From positions 186,001 to 250,000 of the forward strand of contig NZ_JAVJSQ010000014.1 of the NCBI RefSeq assembly GCF_040219335.1: a stretch of DNA of 64,000 bases. Reading direction: 5' to 3'. Source of the DNA: Gimesia sp. (lineage in GTDB: Bacteria; Planctomycetota; Planctomycetia; Planctomycetales; Planctomycetaceae). The translations under genes and the position numbers were made by a program. This document shows, piece after piece, positions 4,669 to 63,930 of this stretch; the first letter of the stretch is position 1, and every line of letters begins with the position of its first letter. A model generated the notes under the pieces. It saw only the letters and a list, made by a program, of their open reading frames with translations, was not told where the DNA came from and did not search any database.

Positions 4669-9036
<4,368 letters not shown>

Positions 9037-56684: not shown

Positions 56685-57788
56685 ATGCAGATTAATGGAC
56701 TAGCACTTACAGATATTGTAGATCTGGCAGATCACGCGGATCTGTTTGAATTACTGGATAATGAAAGTGTCTACACCCTTTCTCACCAGGGCGTAACGGC
56801 CGGGTTTTCCAGCGTGAAAGCCATTAGTCGTTCTACGGGTATTGAGACACGCCGCCTGCTGCAGCCCGATCTCTGTCCACTGGACATTGCGGTCGCGATT
56901 GCGGAGAAACTCCAGTTTCGCGTCGGCTTTGACTGGAACGAGTGTCCGGCAATTCTGCTCTGTCATTCACACACCAATAACCAGTCAGCCCGTCAGCTCT
57001 GCGATCAGCTTTCCGAAAAGCTGGGCGTACCGACAGAACGCTTCATCCCCTTCAATTATGGCTGTGTCGGCTTTGTACAACTCCTGAACCGGGCCGCACA
57101 ACTGCTGCAGGAACTCCCCGAACGGGTACATATCCCGCTGCTCACGGTCGAAACCCCCGAGCACTGGCACGATTCGTCTGACAAAGCGTTCTGCGGCATA
57201 GTTTCCGCCGGCGCCACCGGCACCACCCTCTGGCGTGGACCGGGACACGAACTGCTGCACGTAGAGACCGCTGTCGAGATCATTCCTGAAGAACGTCGTA
57301 AACCCGACGTCCCTCTGTTCTGGACCGAACAAGGCGACATGTTCGATTTCCGTGGTCAGCCCGAGCATAAGCTTGTGATGCACATGGATGGGGAATCGGT
57401 ATTCCTGAATGGCGTTGATTTCATGTTGAATGCCTGCCTGAAATCATATCACGAAGTTGCCGACGAACCCGGCCGCATCCTGATTGCCCCGCATCAGCCC
57501 AGTGGCAAGCTGCTCAAAGCGATGATTGCAGCCGCGAAGCAGGTACCCATCGAAGCCGACTTCCTGAATAATCTGCCCAACTACGGCAATTCCATCTCGT
57601 CGACAATCCCCACGATCCTGGCACGTCTGGAGCAGGTTGTCAGCCAGAACGGATATGAACCGGCCACACCCGGCGATCTGATTCTGTTGCCCGCAGCAGG
57701 GATTTGTATGGATCGCCTGACAGACGCCATGTGCATTGGTCGTGCCGCCATCCGCTGGCAGCCGGGTCGCTATCACGAAGAAGCCTGA
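56685..57788 (+). CDS. KAS III (FabH)-fold beta-ketoacyl synthase-like protein
   Basis: A 367-residue thiolase-fold protein. The catalytic triad of FabH-type condensing enzymes is visible: Cys127 (FNYGCVGFVQ), His270 (APHQPSGKLL) and Asn302 (YGNSISSTIP). The remainder is divergent from FabH, especially the N-terminal half (residues 1-90). It could join a short acyl-CoA to an acyl carrier protein, or form a ketone or hydrocarbon head-to-head product. No acyl carrier protein or other lipid gene lies nearby, so the pathway is undetermined. The stop codon lies within a hairpin shared with the convergent gene. Confidence 0.82.
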   Translation: MQINGLALTDIVDLADHADLFELLDNESVYTLSHQGVTAGFSSVKAISRSTGIETRRLLQPDLCPLDIAVAIAEKLQFRVGFDWNECPAILLCHSHTNNQSARQLCDQLSEKLGVPTERFIPFNYGCVGFVQLLNRAAQLLQELPERVHIPLLTVETPEHWHDSSDKAFCGIVSAGATGTTLWRGPGHELLHVETAVEIIPEERRKPDVPLFWTEQGDMFDFRGQPEHKLVMHMDGESVFLNGVDFMLNACLKSYHEVADEPGRILIAPHQPSGKLLKAMIAAAKQVPIEADFLNNLPNYGNSISSTIPTILARLEQVVSQNGYEPATPGDLILLPAAGICMDRLTDAMCIGRAAIRWQPGRYHEEA

Positions 57789-57811
57789 AGCCTCTCTGAG
57801 AGGCTCTCAGG
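57784..57811. other. Hairpin joining two convergent stop codons
   Basis: CCTGA-A-GCCTCTC-T-GAGAGGC-TC-TCAGG: nested inverted repeats that span the TGA of the plus-strand KAS-like gene and the TGA of the minus-strand ATPase gene. The gap between the two stops is only 18 bp. No T-run is present on either strand. Confidence 0.6.
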
Positions 57812-58589
57812 CAGCGTCTCGTTCAAATCCGCGGGTTCCAAAGGCTTCGCGACCTTCGATGATCGAGCCCTTGTCGAACCGCTTTCCGAAGTACAGCGCC
57901 TGGGCTGATTCGTCGCTGAGCACGGTTTCCGCGTCCCCACTGACGAGTACCTGCCCCGCACTGATGATATAGCTGCGGTCCGTAATGGTCAGTGTCTCAC
58001 GTTCACGGTGGTCCGTCAACAGAATCGAGATCCCACTGTCACGCAGGTCGGCAATGATATCCTGAATATCATGAATCGTAACCGGGTCAATCCCGGTGAA
58101 AGGTTCGTCCAGCAGAATCAGTTCCGGAGAGCTGGCCAGGCAGCGGGCAATTTCCAGACGCCGACGTTCCCCCCCGGAGAGGGTCGAAGCAATCTGCTTC
58201 CGCTTGGCGGTCAATCCGAACTGATCCAGCAGTCGATCGACGGTCTCGCGTCGCTGACGGCGATTCAGGTCGAGGAACTCCAGGATGGCGTAGATGTTGT
58301 CTTCAATCGAGAGTTTGACAAAGACACTCTCATCCTGAGGCAGGTACCCCATGCCCTTACGCGCCCGTTTGTACATGGGCCAGGAGGTGACATCGGTATC
58401 TTCCAGGTAGACACGGCCCTTCGTGGGAGCAACCATTCCACAGGCCATGCGGAAGGTGGTCGTCTTACCGGCCCCGTTGGGTCCCAGCAGACCGACGATC
58501 TCGCCCCGTTCCACGAAAAAATCGACGCCGTCGACGGCCCGTTTACCCGGATAATCCTTGACCAGACCGACGCATTCCAGCAATGGCAT
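57807..58589 (-). CDS. lptB: LptB-type ABC transporter ATP-binding protein
   Basis: A 260-residue ATPase from the ATG at 58589. Walker A GPNGAGKTTT, the Q-loop segment GMGYLPQDESVFVKLSIEDN, signature LSGGERRRLEIARCLA, Walker B LILLDEPFTGIDP and switch His (LLTDHRERET) match LptB, the ATPase that extracts lipopolysaccharide from the inner membrane. The C-terminal region past 235 is longer than in E. coli LptB (241 residues). No LptC, LptA, LptF or LptG gene is nearby. Planctomycetes have LPS-type outer membranes, so the role is plausible; a general export ATPase cannot be excluded. Confidence 0.85.
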   Translation of the reverse strand: MPLLECVGLVKDYPGKRAVDGVDFFVERGEIVGLLGPNGAGKTTTFRMACGMVAPTKGRVYLEDTDVTSWPMYKRARKGMGYLPQDESVFVKLSIEDNIYAILEFLDLNRRQRRETVDRLLDQFGLTAKRKQIASTLSGGERRRLEIARCLASSPELILLDEPFTGIDPVTIHDIQDIIADLRDSGISILLTDHRERETLTITDRSYIISAGQVLVSGDAETVLSDESAQALYFGKRFDKGSIIEGREAFGTRGFERDAA

Positions 58590-58696
58590 CGTAGCCGTCC
58601 TCCTTGACGAAACTGCAACTCGAAAATTAACGAACACGGATTTTACTACATTCGAGGATCTGGCTGAATAGTGATTTTCAGCGGAATTCCCCGGCT

Positions 58697-60565
58697 TTAG
58701 CGAATGCGTTTCATGCGGGTAAAATTGGGGTAAAAGGGGAACGACAGCTTGGCATAGGGGTCCTTGGGATAAGATCCGGGAGCCGTCTGATGGTAGAAAA
58801 ACCGTTTGAGCGGTCCCACATCGGGTGAGTAGCCGCGACCATCATTCATAAACGGAATTCCATGCGGCCAGTAGATCATGAAGGCTTTCCCGACCAGGGC
58901 TGTACGCGGGACGGCGTGACGACGTTCTGCCCCCCGGTCATTGCCCCACAAACGACTGTCGGCACTGCGGGCGGAGTTATCGCCGAGCACGAAGAATTCT
59001 TCATCAGACATTTGTGCAAACGTGACTTTCTGGTGATGATCTTCATACTCACGACTCCAGGCAGCCGGATCGTAGAGGAGCTCCCAGAGATGTTTATGCT
59101 CGCCTGGAATTTCCAGCTTCTGATAATACTCGTCCGCACGGTAGTAGATGTCTCTTTGCAGCAGCAGATGGGAGACGTTGAAATTGAGTCCCCGGCCCGC
59201 GATTCCCGCTGGTGCCAGGTCGCCTTCCCGTGGATCGTGTGTCGCTGTCGGCTTGTACTCTGACTTGCCCTGCAGTTCCACCAGATCCCCGTCAATCCAG
59301 AGACAGAGCCGCTGATCGACGTTCGCAAACATGATCTGATGAGCGCCCGCTCCCTGCAATGAGGTTTCGACGGTCGTTAATTCGGTCTCCACCGGTTCGG
59401 GGTTGGGATAATCTTCCACGTAGTAGAGGGTCGCTTTGCCGGTCTTTACGTCAAACTTGACGCGGTAATGCCGATCGCCGCGCATCAGTTCCACGAACAG
59501 TTCTCCTTCGGCATTCTCGATCTCTACATCGAAACTGAGTGTGAGATCCCCGACCCAGAAGGCAGCGTCGTAGATGTAATATCCCTCGGTGGTACCCCCG
59601 GTGTAGCTGTTATAGGCGGTAAAATCACTGATCAGTCGGGGCCGGGGAGGAGAGGACAGGATCGACTGCTGAAACAGTTCCGGGTTTTCCTGGAGCAGAG
59701 CCCACTCTGATGTCTGAGGCACCACATGCTGATAGCGCAGCCATTCCAGTTTCGCGTCAGCCTGCTTGAGGGATTCCCCCTGATATTGATAGGCCCGCGA
59801 TTCCTGATCGATCACCCAGTTGGACTTGCTCAGCCTCTGGAACTTCGTCTCGCCGGCGGCTACCTGCTGCATGGGAGACCAGCGTTCGGGCCAGCCATAC
59901 TGCAGAATTTCGCGGGGTGGATAATCATCATCATAGACCAGTTGCTGAACCGTCAGCTGTTTTTCCAGGTTGTCTTTGCGGAGAATCTGAAACGGTTCCT
60001 GATCGCTTTTGCGGGCGTAAACATCGCCGCGGGAAATCTGGATTTCCTCGCCAGGCAGTCCGACCAGGCGTTTGATGTAATTGGTCTGCGACGCCTCCGG
60101 ATATTTGAAGACAATCACATCCCAGCGATCAGGATCGCCGAACTCAAAGGGGAATTTATTGACGATTATCCGATCCCCGGTAAACGGCATCGCTTCCCGC
60201 AGGTCAGCATAGTAGCGACAGTTGGGACAGAGCGCACCGGTCACTTTTAAATCGGGTCGGTAATACTCTGTCTTCTCAATCAGTTCATCACTGGCACCGA
60301 CGGCATATTTGACGCCACATGAAGGACAGGTCAGCTCCTTGTGCCGACCGTAGAGTGTGGGGGCCATGGAACCGGTGGGAATGACGAACGCTTCAGCCGA
60401 ATAAGCCCGGAACACAAATGCGAACACCAGCGCAATAATGATCGATTCGATCGTATCGCGGACTTCATTATGGCGGGAACGAGGAGTTTCGGACTCAGCC
60501 TGTTTTTTCTCAGCCCGTTCTGCCAGAAATGTTTTCAGCTTTGATTTCTCGATTTTTTTGGTCAT
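58697..60565 (-). CDS. Signal peptidase I with zinc-ribbon and beta-sandwich insertions
   Basis: A 622-residue membrane protease from the ATG at 60565 (a TTG 9 bp upstream is less likely). One membrane helix (39-57) precedes box B with catalytic Ser66 (PTGSMAPTL); catalytic Lys165 lies in NYIKRLVGLPGE. Between them is a zinc ribbon (C80, C83, C113, C116). After YVKRLVG-type box D the protein contains a long insertion (about 190-520), whose second half (LTLSFDVEIENAEGELFVEL; HQIMFANVDQRLCLWIDGDL) resembles a concanavalin/LamG-like beta-sandwich. Box E, FFVLGDNSARSADSRLWG, closes the catalytic fold. Normal SPase I is 250-330 residues. It is paired with a second enzyme of the same design just upstream. 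Confidence 0.88.
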   Translation of the reverse strand: MTKKIEKSKLKTFLAERAEKKQAESETPRSRHNEVRDTIESIIIALVFAFVFRAYSAEAFVIPTGSMAPTLYGRHKELTCPSCGVKYAVGASDELIEKTEYYRPDLKVTGALCPNCRYYADLREAMPFTGDRIIVNKFPFEFGDPDRWDVIVFKYPEASQTNYIKRLVGLPGEEIQISRGDVYARKSDQEPFQILRKDNLEKQLTVQQLVYDDDYPPREILQYGWPERWSPMQQVAAGETKFQRLSKSNWVIDQESRAYQYQGESLKQADAKLEWLRYQHVVPQTSEWALLQENPELFQQSILSSPPRPRLISDFTAYNSYTGGTTEGYYIYDAAFWVGDLTLSFDVEIENAEGELFVELMRGDRHYRVKFDVKTGKATLYYVEDYPNPEPVETELTTVETSLQGAGAHQIMFANVDQRLCLWIDGDLVELQGKSEYKPTATHDPREGDLAPAGIAGRGLNFNVSHLLLQRDIYYRADEYYQKLEIPGEHKHLWELLYDPAAWSREYEDHHQKVTFAQMSDEEFFVLGDNSARSADSRLWGNDRGAERRHAVPRTALVGKAFMIYWPHGIPFMNDGRGYSPDVGPLKRFFYHQTAPGSYPKDPYAKLSFPFYPNFTRMKRIR

Positions 60566-60707
60566 CAATGCCAACCTGTCAATTTATCGCATGCGAAAGC
60601 GGAACCAGCTTTGTTCGCCCGTTCCCATTATTCGCCGTTCGCGCTGGTTTATGGGCGTTTTTCTTCAAATGAGACGAAAAATGATCATAAAGAAAACCAA
60701 CCCCTGA

Positions 60708-62414
60708 TCAGTGAATATAGCGAATCCGGGAGAAATCTGGAATGCGTATGTGTCCGATATGATTCCCGAATTTGACTTCCCCCTGCCGGGAGGGGAGATG
60801 CACCAGAAAAGGCTTACCCAGCAGGTACTTGCGATCCACCTTGCCATCCGCCCAGCTCCGACTGTCCAGCGATACCGGGCTGTTATCTCCCAGTACGAAA
60901 TAGCTGCGTTCGTCGAGCTCGTAGGGCTCTTCCACGCCGTGCAATCCCTTGCCGCGGGTGTAGTGAATATCGCGATATAACTTCAGATCGGCTACCTGGA
61001 CTCGTGCCCCCTGACAGCCAAAGCGAACCGGCTCGCGGATCTCCTTCCGCGGGGTGGTACTCTCAGAGAAGAGCAGCGGCTGATAGAGCAGCTTTCCATC
61101 GACGGCACACAGAACCTGGCGATCCATGACGGACATCTCGAGCCGCACGGGGTCGGAACGGAACGCGTCATGCAGGGGTTCGCTGCGGAGTGGCTGCTGC
61201 TGGTCGTCGACCCAGAGTGACACCTGCTGCTGGGCGAAGTCGATCAGCGTACGAAACTGATGCTGTCCATTCTGCATTTCGACCGCGAAGGCCCCTTCCC
61301 TCCCGGAGACCTGCAGCTGACACTCAAACATAAAGTCATGCACGGGAATCGCTTTCTGATTCTCCACGCCCGAATTATAAGCGTAATCATCGACGACCGG
61401 AGCCACATGCGATTTCTCATACAACAGTGCCAGCGCATAACGGAACTCTTCATCCTCGGACTGGTTTAACCACCGCTGGCAGTCATCGGGGGAGAGTGCC
61501 CCATGACAGGTGAGCTGCTGTTTCTGTTCATCGTAGTGCACTGCGCCGATTACCGGTTCCGGCAGATCCACTTCTGCGGGCCAGGCTTCCAGTGGGACGC
61601 TTGTTTCGTGGTGTCCCCCCTGTCGGATCCAGTGCTGGTATTTTACCCACGACCAGTGTGATTCCGCCAGAGGATTGTCCTGATCGGCGGTATGCACAAA
61701 GCCGTGCTCACGAGGCGACCAGCGGTTGCTCGCCCCGCCTGCGTCGTCATCTACTTCCACGGGCATGAAACGGGGCTGGAAAAAATCGTCGTCCTGGGGC
61801 TGATAGCGATTGTCATACACGAGTTGCCGCACCGCGCGTTGCGTTTTCAATTCTTTCCGCTGTATCTCACCGTTGACGTAGAGATCCCCCTGCTTGACCT
61901 GCACCTTTTCTCCGGGCAGTCCCACAACCCGTTTGACATAAGCCTGGGTAGGTTTGATCGGATTCTGAAACACGACGACCTCCCAGCGGCGGGGTGGTTT
62001 CAGATAGTAGGCGTGTTTGAAGACCAGCAGCTGATCACCTTCGTTGCGGGGCACGTGGGTCAGATCAATGGAATTCGTATTGCAGTTGGGACAGGTCGCG
62101 TACTCGCCCACACCCGCGTTGAGATCAGCCTCTCCGGAGGCTCCCTGGAAACGGTTTGCGGAAACCGATTCGTCGTAGGCGACTCCGTAAGTAAACGAAT
62201 AATGACAGCGGGGACAGGTAACCTGTTTGTGATAACCCAACAGTGATGGGGCCATCGAGCCCGTTGAGATCATATAACCTTCCGCTTCGAAGGTCCGAAA
62301 GAGAATCACGGCGATTGCGAGTGCGACCACAGACTCCACCACCATCCGCATCAGGCTGGTTCGCTCGGGAACTTCTTCTGTGCTGGAATCGGTTTGAAGG
62401 GATGATTGGTGCAT
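60708..62414 (-). CDS. Signal peptidase I paralogue with the same inserted domains
   Basis: A 568-residue second signal peptidase. One membrane helix (22-42), Ser53 (STGSMAPSL), zinc ribbon C67, C70, C108 and C111, and Lys161 (AYVKRVVGLPGEKV) parallel the downstream gene. The long insertion ends with VRLEMSVMDRQVLCAVDGKL and VADLKLYRDIHYTRG. Box E, YFVLGDNSPVSLDSRSWADG, is intact. Both active-site residues remain, so both paralogues should be active. The two genes differ in most of the insertion, suggesting different substrates. The gap between them is 142 bp. Confidence 0.88.
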   Translation of the reverse strand: MHQSSLQTDSSTEEVPERTSLMRMVVESVVALAIAVILFRTFEAEGYMISTGSMAPSLLGYHKQVTCPRCHYSFTYGVAYDESVSANRFQGASGEADLNAGVGEYATCPNCNTNSIDLTHVPRNEGDQLLVFKHAYYLKPPRRWEVVVFQNPIKPTQAYVKRVVGLPGEKVQVKQGDLYVNGEIQRKELKTQRAVRQLVYDNRYQPQDDDFFQPRFMPVEVDDDAGGASNRWSPREHGFVHTADQDNPLAESHWSWVKYQHWIRQGGHHETSVPLEAWPAEVDLPEPVIGAVHYDEQKQQLTCHGALSPDDCQRWLNQSEDEEFRYALALLYEKSHVAPVVDDYAYNSGVENQKAIPVHDFMFECQLQVSGREGAFAVEMQNGQHQFRTLIDFAQQQVSLWVDDQQQPLRSEPLHDAFRSDPVRLEMSVMDRQVLCAVDGKLLYQPLLFSESTTPRKEIREPVRFGCQGARVQVADLKLYRDIHYTRGKGLHGVEEPYELDERSYFVLGDNSPVSLDSRSWADGKVDRKYLLGKPFLVHLPSRQGEVKFGNHIGHIRIPDFSRIRYIH

Positions 62415-63393: not shown

Positions 63394-63930
63394 TTACTTC
63401 TTATCAGCGGCTGGCTTTTCAGGAGCCGGCTTCGACTCTGCTTCAGGAGCTTTCTCAGCCTTCGCCTCGGGAGCGGCCTTTTTTTCGGCTGCTTCAGGGG
63501 CTGCCGCTGGTGCAGCCTGCTCGCCAGCCGGGGCAGCGGGCGCGGGTGCAGCGGTTGGTGCAGCTTCTACTGGTGCGTTATCTTCCTGGAATCCCTTGAC
63601 GTAATTATCGTAAGCATGCGAATCGAGGAGGATCATACAGAGGAAGAAGGCCGCAAAACAGATCGAGAAGAAGAAGGTGATGCGGTTCAATGGTTTGTCG
63701 TACCAGAGGTGCATAAAGATGAAGACCACCAGGGATGCCTTCGCTGTCGCGATCGCCATGGAGACAATCACATCCAGGCTGCCGGTATCGTACTTGGCAG
63801 CTTCCACGGTCACGATGGTCAGAAACACCAGGGCCAGGAAGACACCGACCAGCACTTTTACCGGAACGATGTGTACGTGGCAGCTCTGAGCTTCTTCTGC
63901 GTGAGCATCACTTTCAACATGATCTGACAT
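63394..63930 (-). CDS. Cytochrome c oxidase subunit IV-like protein with Ala/Pro/Lys tail
   Basis: A 178-residue protein. Three membrane helices occupy residues about 24-109 (VLVGVFLALVFLTIVTVEAA; ASLVVFIFMHLWYDKPLNRI; FFFSICFAAFFLCMILLDSH), the layout of prokaryotic subunit IV. The C-terminal 70 residues (109-178) are a low-complexity tract of Ala, Pro, Glu and Lys, not part of the family fold. The 70 bp before the ATG at 63930 show no promoter; the gene is probably cotranscribed with oxidase genes beyond the right edge. Confidence 0.85.
   Translation of the reverse strand: MSDHVESDAHAEEAQSCHVHIVPVKVLVGVFLALVFLTIVTVEAAKYDTGSLDVIVSMAIATAKASLVVFIFMHLWYDKPLNRITFFFSICFAAFFLCMILLDSHAYDNYVKGFQEDNAPVEAAPTAAPAPAAPAGEQAAPAAAPEAAEKKAAPEAKAEKAPEAESKPAPEKPAADKK

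Follow-up and report, generated by a model that had tools for sequence, protein, structure and literature searches.

What has been built into the signal peptidases of a planctomycete, and what might it do for them? The question is raised by two neighboring minus-strand genes of Gimesia sp. (Planctomycetota; Planctomycetaceae) in a 64,000-nucleotide stretch of DNA, here called the window (NCBI RefSeq assembly GCF_040219335.1, contig NZ_JAVJSQ010000014.1, positions 186,001 to 250,000 of the forward strand). An earlier note, made from the sequence alone, had proposed that they are twin signal peptidases with a zinc ribbon and a lectin-like domain inserted into the catalytic fold. In model bacteria, signal peptidase I is an essential enzyme; its variable domain II has, to our knowledge, no settled function. 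The reading that we consider reasonably likely is that of a planctomycete-type general signal peptidase in which domain II would have turned into a scaffold or docking domain of lectin fold, with a genetic link to envelope building. Alignment and profile comparison show that domain II in Planctomycetota has been replaced, or else enlarged, by an insert that ends in a predicted lectin-like region. Coordinates below are window positions, and features lie on the minus strand unless stated otherwise.

Both genes encode type I signal peptidases (family S26A). Copy A (58697..60565, ATG at 60565) specifies 622 amino acids and copy B (60708..62414) specifies 568. The Pfam family PF10502 matched copy A with 110.8 bits and copy B with 109.1 bits (cut-off, 22.9), in pieces split by the inserts, and TIGR02227 matched with 99.9 and 100.4 bits, respectively (cut-off, 47). 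Nine of the ten listed PDB matches of copy A belong to signal peptidase I. The two proteins are paralogues, with 151 of 608 aligned positions identical (E = 7e-46), and the claim that the locus holds twin signal peptidases was thus borne out. Within the 7.9-Mb genome, which is 99.99% complete, PF10502 matched copies A and B only; PF00717 matched three small frames of 136, 205, and 208 amino acids, which we take to be LexA-type proteins. Since the genome has no third PF10502 match, copies A and B most likely carry type I signal-peptide cleavage, and they would share this general task.

The catalytic core is intact in both copies. In copy A, the catalytic serine, Ser66 (codon 60368..60370, within PTGSMAP), and the catalytic lysine, Lys165 (codon 60071..60073, within YIKRLVGLPGE), align with S91 and K146 of Escherichia coli LepB and are invariant across 36 sequences. 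The corresponding residues of copy B, Ser53 (codon 62256..62258) and Lys161 (codon 61932..61934), are invariant across 30 relatives, so the dyads had been numbered correctly. Box E reads GDNSARSADSR in copy A (residues 528 to 538; 58952..58984) and GDNSPVSLDSR in copy B (residues 509 to 519; 60858..60890). Alignment to E. coli LepB (chains 1b12, 1kn9, and 1t7d) showed that the Ser/Lys dyad, the Ser and Lys boxes, and box E are common to all three proteins, that LepB likewise carries an insertion between Lys and box E, and that the C-terminal R-[IM]-x-x-I-[RH] tail aligns. A 12-residue LepB stretch between Ser and Lys, which we take to be the beta-ribbon, is missing from both copies. E. coli LepB has two membrane segments, whereas each copy has one by Kyte-Doolittle hydropathy: residues 42 to 60 of copy A (60386..60442; maximum, 1.88; next, 0.85) and residues 21 to 39 of copy B (62298..62354; maximum, 2.35; next, 0.80). 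With one hydrophobic segment before the serine and the usual S26A topology, the inserts of both copies should face outward, in agreement with the placement outside the membrane that had been suggested for them. Both copies are working-type S26A enzymes, in which an N-terminal anchor would hold a catalytic domain outside the inner membrane, where it would cut signal peptides.

The interval between the catalytic lysine and box E, predicted earlier to hold more than 300 additional residues, is 363 residues long in copy A (K165 to G528) and 348 in copy B (K161 to G509), compared with 127 in E. coli LepB (K146 to G273). The insert of about 330 residues in each copy occupies the site of the LepB region that we take to be domain II, and its length ranged from 219 to 418 residues among 49 aligned planctomycete sequences (alignment A4). 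Each insert falls into two halves. The first half spans residues 198 to 307 in copy A (59645..59974) and, by alignment, residues 188 to 324 in copy B (61443..61853); it had no relative among five profile sets (LamG_3, DUF1080, PQQ_2, F5/8C, and LptB; 0.2% probability at most). The second half, residues 308 to 482 in copy A (59120..59644) and 325 to 490 in copy B (60945..61442; E = 2.8e-38 with a profile that contains the sequence itself), is lectin-like.

The lectin-like character of the second half was found by profile comparison. With hhalign, an alignment of 44 of the 49 sequences (A6) matched 27 LamG_3 domains of the same genome at 86.8% probability over 124 columns and 30 DUF1080 domains of that genome at 73.2% over 58 columns. 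The control sets gave 0.9% (PQQ_2), 0.5% (F5/8C, five short sequences), and 0.2% (LptB), the reversed insert profile gave 0.3% or less with all five sets, and LamG_3 and DUF1080 matched one another at 55.5% in the same test. The genome has 32 LamG matches; 30 domains were fetched and 27 kept, three being too short. For DUF1080, 30 of 40 matches were used, and for PQQ_2, 25 of 81. These results uphold the proposed likeness to LamG, concanavalin, or DUF1080 folds. In single-sequence searches of the 44 members, the best Pfam values, one member each, were for galectin (E = 0.0024), BT_MCC_alpha (0.0033), Laminin_G_3 (0.0053), and DUF1080 (0.0063), with further matches to GLEYA in five members, PA14 in four, and Laminin_G_2 in two. 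Searched against its own genome, the insert profile recovered copies A and B; two more matches, at E = 0.3 and 0.4, were counted as noise. The 44-row alignment has a mean column identity of 22%, with four invariant positions, D33 (in VGDL), D110 (in NVD), P138, and D165 (in RD-x-YY), and a nearly invariant R-D-x-x-Y motif. Weak as it is, the profile similarity makes a concanavalin-type sandwich the probable fold of the second half. Laminin G_3, DUF1080 (3-keto-disaccharide hydrolase), and galectin, which it resembles below their curated cut-offs, are separate domains, whereas the lectin-like region here is built into the peptidase.

The insert is widespread. All 199 of the sampled Planctomycetota genomes have PF10502, and the insert profile matched 272 of 294, including 145 of the 155 of good quality. 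Twenty chosen insert-matching loci yielded 24 distinct frames, in all of which the domain precedes the GDN box; by the patterns used, the Ser motif was present in 23 and the Lys motif in 18. The pattern is more than chance, since it is conserved across the family and the phylum. The idea that the design is unique to the two window genes was rejected on the same grounds. A broad scan over a collection of 84,980 species, in which the best 80 of 482 relatives gave 79 loci, offers weak evidence on other phyla. Among these best-match loci, 76 carry planctomycete titles; the others are titled "bacterium" (L076), "uncultured bacterium" (L149), and "Bacteroidales" (L120). L149 groups in the tree with G155 of the same phylum, and L120 (Bacteroidales bacterium UW1SPNA076) supplies the only tree rows from another phylum. 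Its A-type and B-type copies both group with Gemmataceae rows; transfer to Bacteroidales was therefore thought unlikely, and a wrong label or a mixed record is the probable cause. As judged from these alignments, the lectin-like insert is a trait of the planctomycete phylum, located at the domain II site of E. coli LepB.

The age and relationship of the twins were read from a tree built without the loop that follows the catalytic serine, by a quick search with Shimodaira-Hasegawa-like approximate likelihood ratio test (SH-aLRT) support only and a midpoint root for drawing. From 215 insert-bearing frames, 156 were parsed by pattern; with the two window proteins these made 158 and, after removal of five duplicates and three pattern-truncated rows, 150. 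The tree holds 127 rows. Besides both window proteins and the full set of 39 non-ribbon rows (those lacking the four-cysteine loop described below), it includes every ribbon row from locus L075 onward; ribbon rows from earlier loci are represented by 20 chosen at random. Copies A and B fall into separate clades (44 rows, support 95, and 22 rows, support 100, respectively), which are sisters with a branch support of 88. Each clade holds Planctomycetaceae, Isosphaeraceae, and Gemmataceae, so the A/B duplication predates the split of these families and is not recent. In the family sample, 30 of 31 genomes have relatives of copy A. The twins are often adjacent but not always: in G199 and G221 they are widely spaced or on separate contigs.

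The separate history of copy B bears on its role. Copy B might be specialized for a putative class of substrates, for instance giant proteins or surface proteins, and might be dispensable for general export. Its persistence as a separate clade across the three families fits this view, as does its genomic setting, in which none of 15 B-clade frames is followed by the LPS (lipopolysaccharide) export gene lptB, discussed below. Copy B has nonetheless retained the catalytic residues and both inserts, and we regard such specialization as a contender, though a somewhat doubtful one. We favor copy B as an old, diverged copy that would serve part of the substrates of a general enzyme.

The spread of the insert also bears on whether it does anything at all. 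It could be an enlarged but passive domain II that adds bulk or stability and has no partner. It does occupy the variable domain II site, the distance from Lys to box E varies from 238 to 544 residues among the frames of relatives, and sequence identity between the second halves is low. Presence in 272 of 294 genomes, together with the invariant aspartates and the nearly invariant R-D-x-x-Y motif, suggests instead a function that has been kept, and a purely passive insert seems unlikely to us. A lectin-fold domain II that serves as a scaffold or docking surface, rather than as a second enzyme, could keep the peptidase near its substrates or near the envelope machinery. Because the same lectin-like domain II occurs in most sampled members of the phylum, next to loops with or without cysteines, these enzymes make up a natural series in which domain II function could be studied.

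The second inserted element, which several planctomycete lineages besides this one have, lies between the catalytic residues, just past the serine and before a strand that begins G-D. E. coli LepB has no cysteine loop at this point (PTLL|IGD), and both copies have a loop of about 60 residues. The four cysteines that had been noticed between Ser and Lys were located, in a 37-sequence alignment, at C80-x2-C83 and C113-x2-C116 in copy A, with G-x-H ahead (60218..60328), and at C67-x2-C70 and C108-x2-C111 in copy B (62082..62216). That alignment (A7) consists of 37 of the 49 sequences of A4, picked for a regular ribbon by leaving out Cys-less, very long, or odd loops; within this selection a Gly, a His, the four Cys, and a further Gly are invariant. 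The cysteine pattern suggests that the four residues bind zinc. As in zinc ribbons and rubredoxin, there are two CxxC pairs; here, however, they sit inside a peptidase next to the catalytic serine and outside the cytoplasm, one clade has lost or lacks them, and the metal is predicted from the pattern. The best Pfam match of the copy A loop, Zn_ribbon_4, scored 18.0 bits, short of its cut-off of 30.3. If the four cysteines bind one zinc, the metal would stiffen the loop as a lid or wall beside the substrate groove, a structural job.

Alternatively, the four cysteines might form two disulfides. The topology, which would place the loop outside the cytoplasm, is compatible with this, and domain II of E. 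coli LepB has a disulfide. The arrangement in two CxxC pairs, 29 residues apart in copy A and 37 in copy B and often reading C-P-x-C or C-P-N-C, is nevertheless typical of zinc ribbons. All four cysteines are also gone together in 15 loops, although two disulfides could go singly, and this all-or-none absence fits a single four-cysteine site. Further CxxC pairs occur besides the ribbon, just before the catalytic lysine, in L143 (Candidatus Scalindua), L145, and L140 (frames at 4925, 4123, and 1741, respectively), and likewise speak against disulfides. On balance, we consider paired disulfides a rather unlikely arrangement and a zinc site the better account of the loop.

Three states of the loop were distinguished: four Cys; a Cys-less "ghost" confined to one Phycisphaerae clade; and a short loop like that of E. 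coli. Among the 158 parsed rows, 134 have long loops, with both CxxC pairs in 114, none in 15, irregular pairs in two, and a pattern-truncated sequence in three; the other 24 are short. A histidine follows the glycine in 102 of 116 ribbon loops and in all 15 Cys-less loops but in none of the 24 short ones, and several ghost loops retain a sequence such as S-P-x-T-G at the site of the first Cys pair. The ghosts form one clade (SH-aLRT 97) nested in a larger one of 25 rows (97); ten of the 25 are ribbon rows, and most titles there read Phycisphaerae or Planctomycetota. On the tree, the three loop states need three changes, compared with a mean of 36.2 for shuffled states, a count that cannot separate gain of the loop from its loss because the root was not inferred. 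The simplest reading is that the ghost loops arose by loss of cysteines. Since the ghost clade has the loop without any cysteine, the metal, if present, is structural. That the two inserts form one design was considered and rejected, since short-loop lineages carry the lectin-like insert without the Cys loop; its presence there, in other planctomycete lineages, points to separate histories of the two inserts.

Other cysteine motifs were seen in single relatives. The minus-strand frame at 1898 of L068 has an insertion with C-L-E-C-H, a CxxCH motif like that of heme c sites, just before the catalytic lysine. In the short-loop frame at 1401 of L059, domain II, rather than the stretch after the serine, holds two Cys-Pro motifs (MVCPNGH and IMCPYDG).

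The gene that follows copy A, 59 bases past its stop, is lptB (57807..58637; start codon uncertain). LptB is the ATPase of LPS export, an ABC (ATP-binding cassette) transporter component, in model bacteria. The window protein scored 306.7 bits with TIGR04406 (cut-off, 240), and the next ABC ATPase of the genome scored 132.7. In relatives, a gene was called lptB-like when it matched the window LptB by tblastn at E of 1e-10 or less, on the same strand and within 1,800 bases; the neighbors in L143 (310.7 bits) and L147 (340.3 bits) also pass TIGR04406, and the other neighbors were called by tblastn only. The tree-placed frames that have 900 or more bases of downstream sequence were scored for an lptB-like gene behind them: it is present for 32 of 42 in the A clade, 5 of 9 with short loops, and 12 of 21 other ribbon frames, but for 0 of 15 in the B clade, 0 of 15 ghosts, and 0 of 1 from a Phycisphaerae group of ribbon frames. 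Counted by locus, regardless of clade, adjacency was found in 40 of 71, 16 of 26, 0 of 4, and 8 of 18 loci of four sets; over all frames it was 65 of 168. The occurrence of the pair in relatives of Gimesia, in Candidatus Scalindua, and in short-loop lineages makes an ancestral origin in the phylum probable, with probable loss in several lineages, including the ghost clade. Copy A, which probably shares an operon with lptB, would be the general, envelope-linked enzyme, and the linkage names a concrete candidate partner for it.

The planctomycete envelope has long been debated. The task of LptB in planctomycetes is less sure: one study (PMC8871954) reports lptB from almost every phylum and a largely reduced set of Lpt components in Planctomycetes. 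The link to lptB and the likely fold together make LPS a fair guess for a ligand of the sandwich. A stronger version, in line with the proposal of the earlier note, holds that the lectin-like domain truly binds a glycan, whether LPS core, wall, or surface polysaccharide, and thereby ties cleavage to envelope glycans. Its nearest detectable relatives do include carbohydrate-binding or glycan-related folds (LamG, DUF1080, and galectin), and most A-clade frames have lptB next to them. Concanavalin-type folds often bind no sugar, however; the invariant D33, D110, P138, and D165 would suit a fold core or calcium equally well, and the ghost clade has kept the domain with no lptB neighbor in any of its 15 frames. 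Glycan binding of this kind therefore strikes us as improbable. In the boldest scenario, the phylum would have rebuilt its general signal peptidase as an envelope sensor. LPS or some other glycan of the envelope would be read by the lectin-fold domain II, copy A would work beside the jointly encoded Lpt export machinery, and a metal ribbon by the active site would set substrate access, thereby coupling protein maturation to outer-membrane building; we consider this very unlikely.

A general, envelope-linked peptidase with a lectin-fold domain II, the reading that we favor, has to be weighed against several results. Twenty-two of the 294 planctomycete genomes gave no match to the insert profile, and the large enzymes are not the sole S26 proteins everywhere: an extra short S26 frame (223 to 356 amino acids) was found in at least 7 of 40 relatives, the genome itself counted (G199, G202, G205, G227, G238, G241, and G249), and within the genus in at least 2 of 17 genomes. 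The lectin-like region of copy A matched no Pfam family at E = 0.1, and single-sequence scans of the inserts against Pfam and NCBIfam gave nothing above cut-off. None of the 44 members reached a curated Pfam cut-off, and BT_MCC_alpha, which is not a lectin family, scored level with the lectin-like ones. In the PDB profile search, the best matches were galectins (E = 0.008) and laminin (0.76), followed by an outer surface protein and a kinase. The ribbon matches to PDB entries (zinc finger, 0.0032; rubredoxin, 0.006) and to Pfam are weak and driven by the spacing of the cysteines, and four cysteines outside the membrane could form disulfides. Finally, 10 of the 42 A-clade frames, like all 15 ghost frames, have no lptB next to them.

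The design had also been called undescribed. No description of a planctomycete signal-peptidase architecture was found among the listed titles and abstract openings of the open-access literature, with subscription journals outside the search; in PMC12758564, lepB serves as a cloning control. To that extent the claim stands, but the design is not peculiar to the two genes, as the distribution of the insert shows. The chlamydial signal peptidase I (CT020), from another phylum of the Planctomycetes-Verrucomicrobia-Chlamydiae group, is about twice normal size. In PMC1403754, it is described as greatly diverged from non-chlamydial signal peptidases; it is likened to copies A and B by divergence, size, and origin in a related phylum. 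The planctomycete signal-peptidase variant is real, conserved, and, as far as these open-access searches show, undescribed; it is a form of a known enzyme family and not a new kind of system.

Two relatives carry far longer frames. L219 (1327-5082, minus) and L220 have frames of 1,252 and 1,263 amino acids with about 850 residues ahead of the catalytic Ser motif, and another signal peptidase with the insert lies in tandem with each. Residues 1 to 800 of the L219 frame matched no Pfam family at E = 0.001, and this may be simply a long open frame in GC-rich DNA. In the window itself, the neighbors are a plus-strand gene (56685-57788) whose product matches ACP_syn_III_C (ketoacyl-ACP synthase III, C-terminal) and which faces lptB, and a minus-strand COX4_pro gene (cytochrome c oxidase subunit IV; 63394-63930) upstream of copy B.

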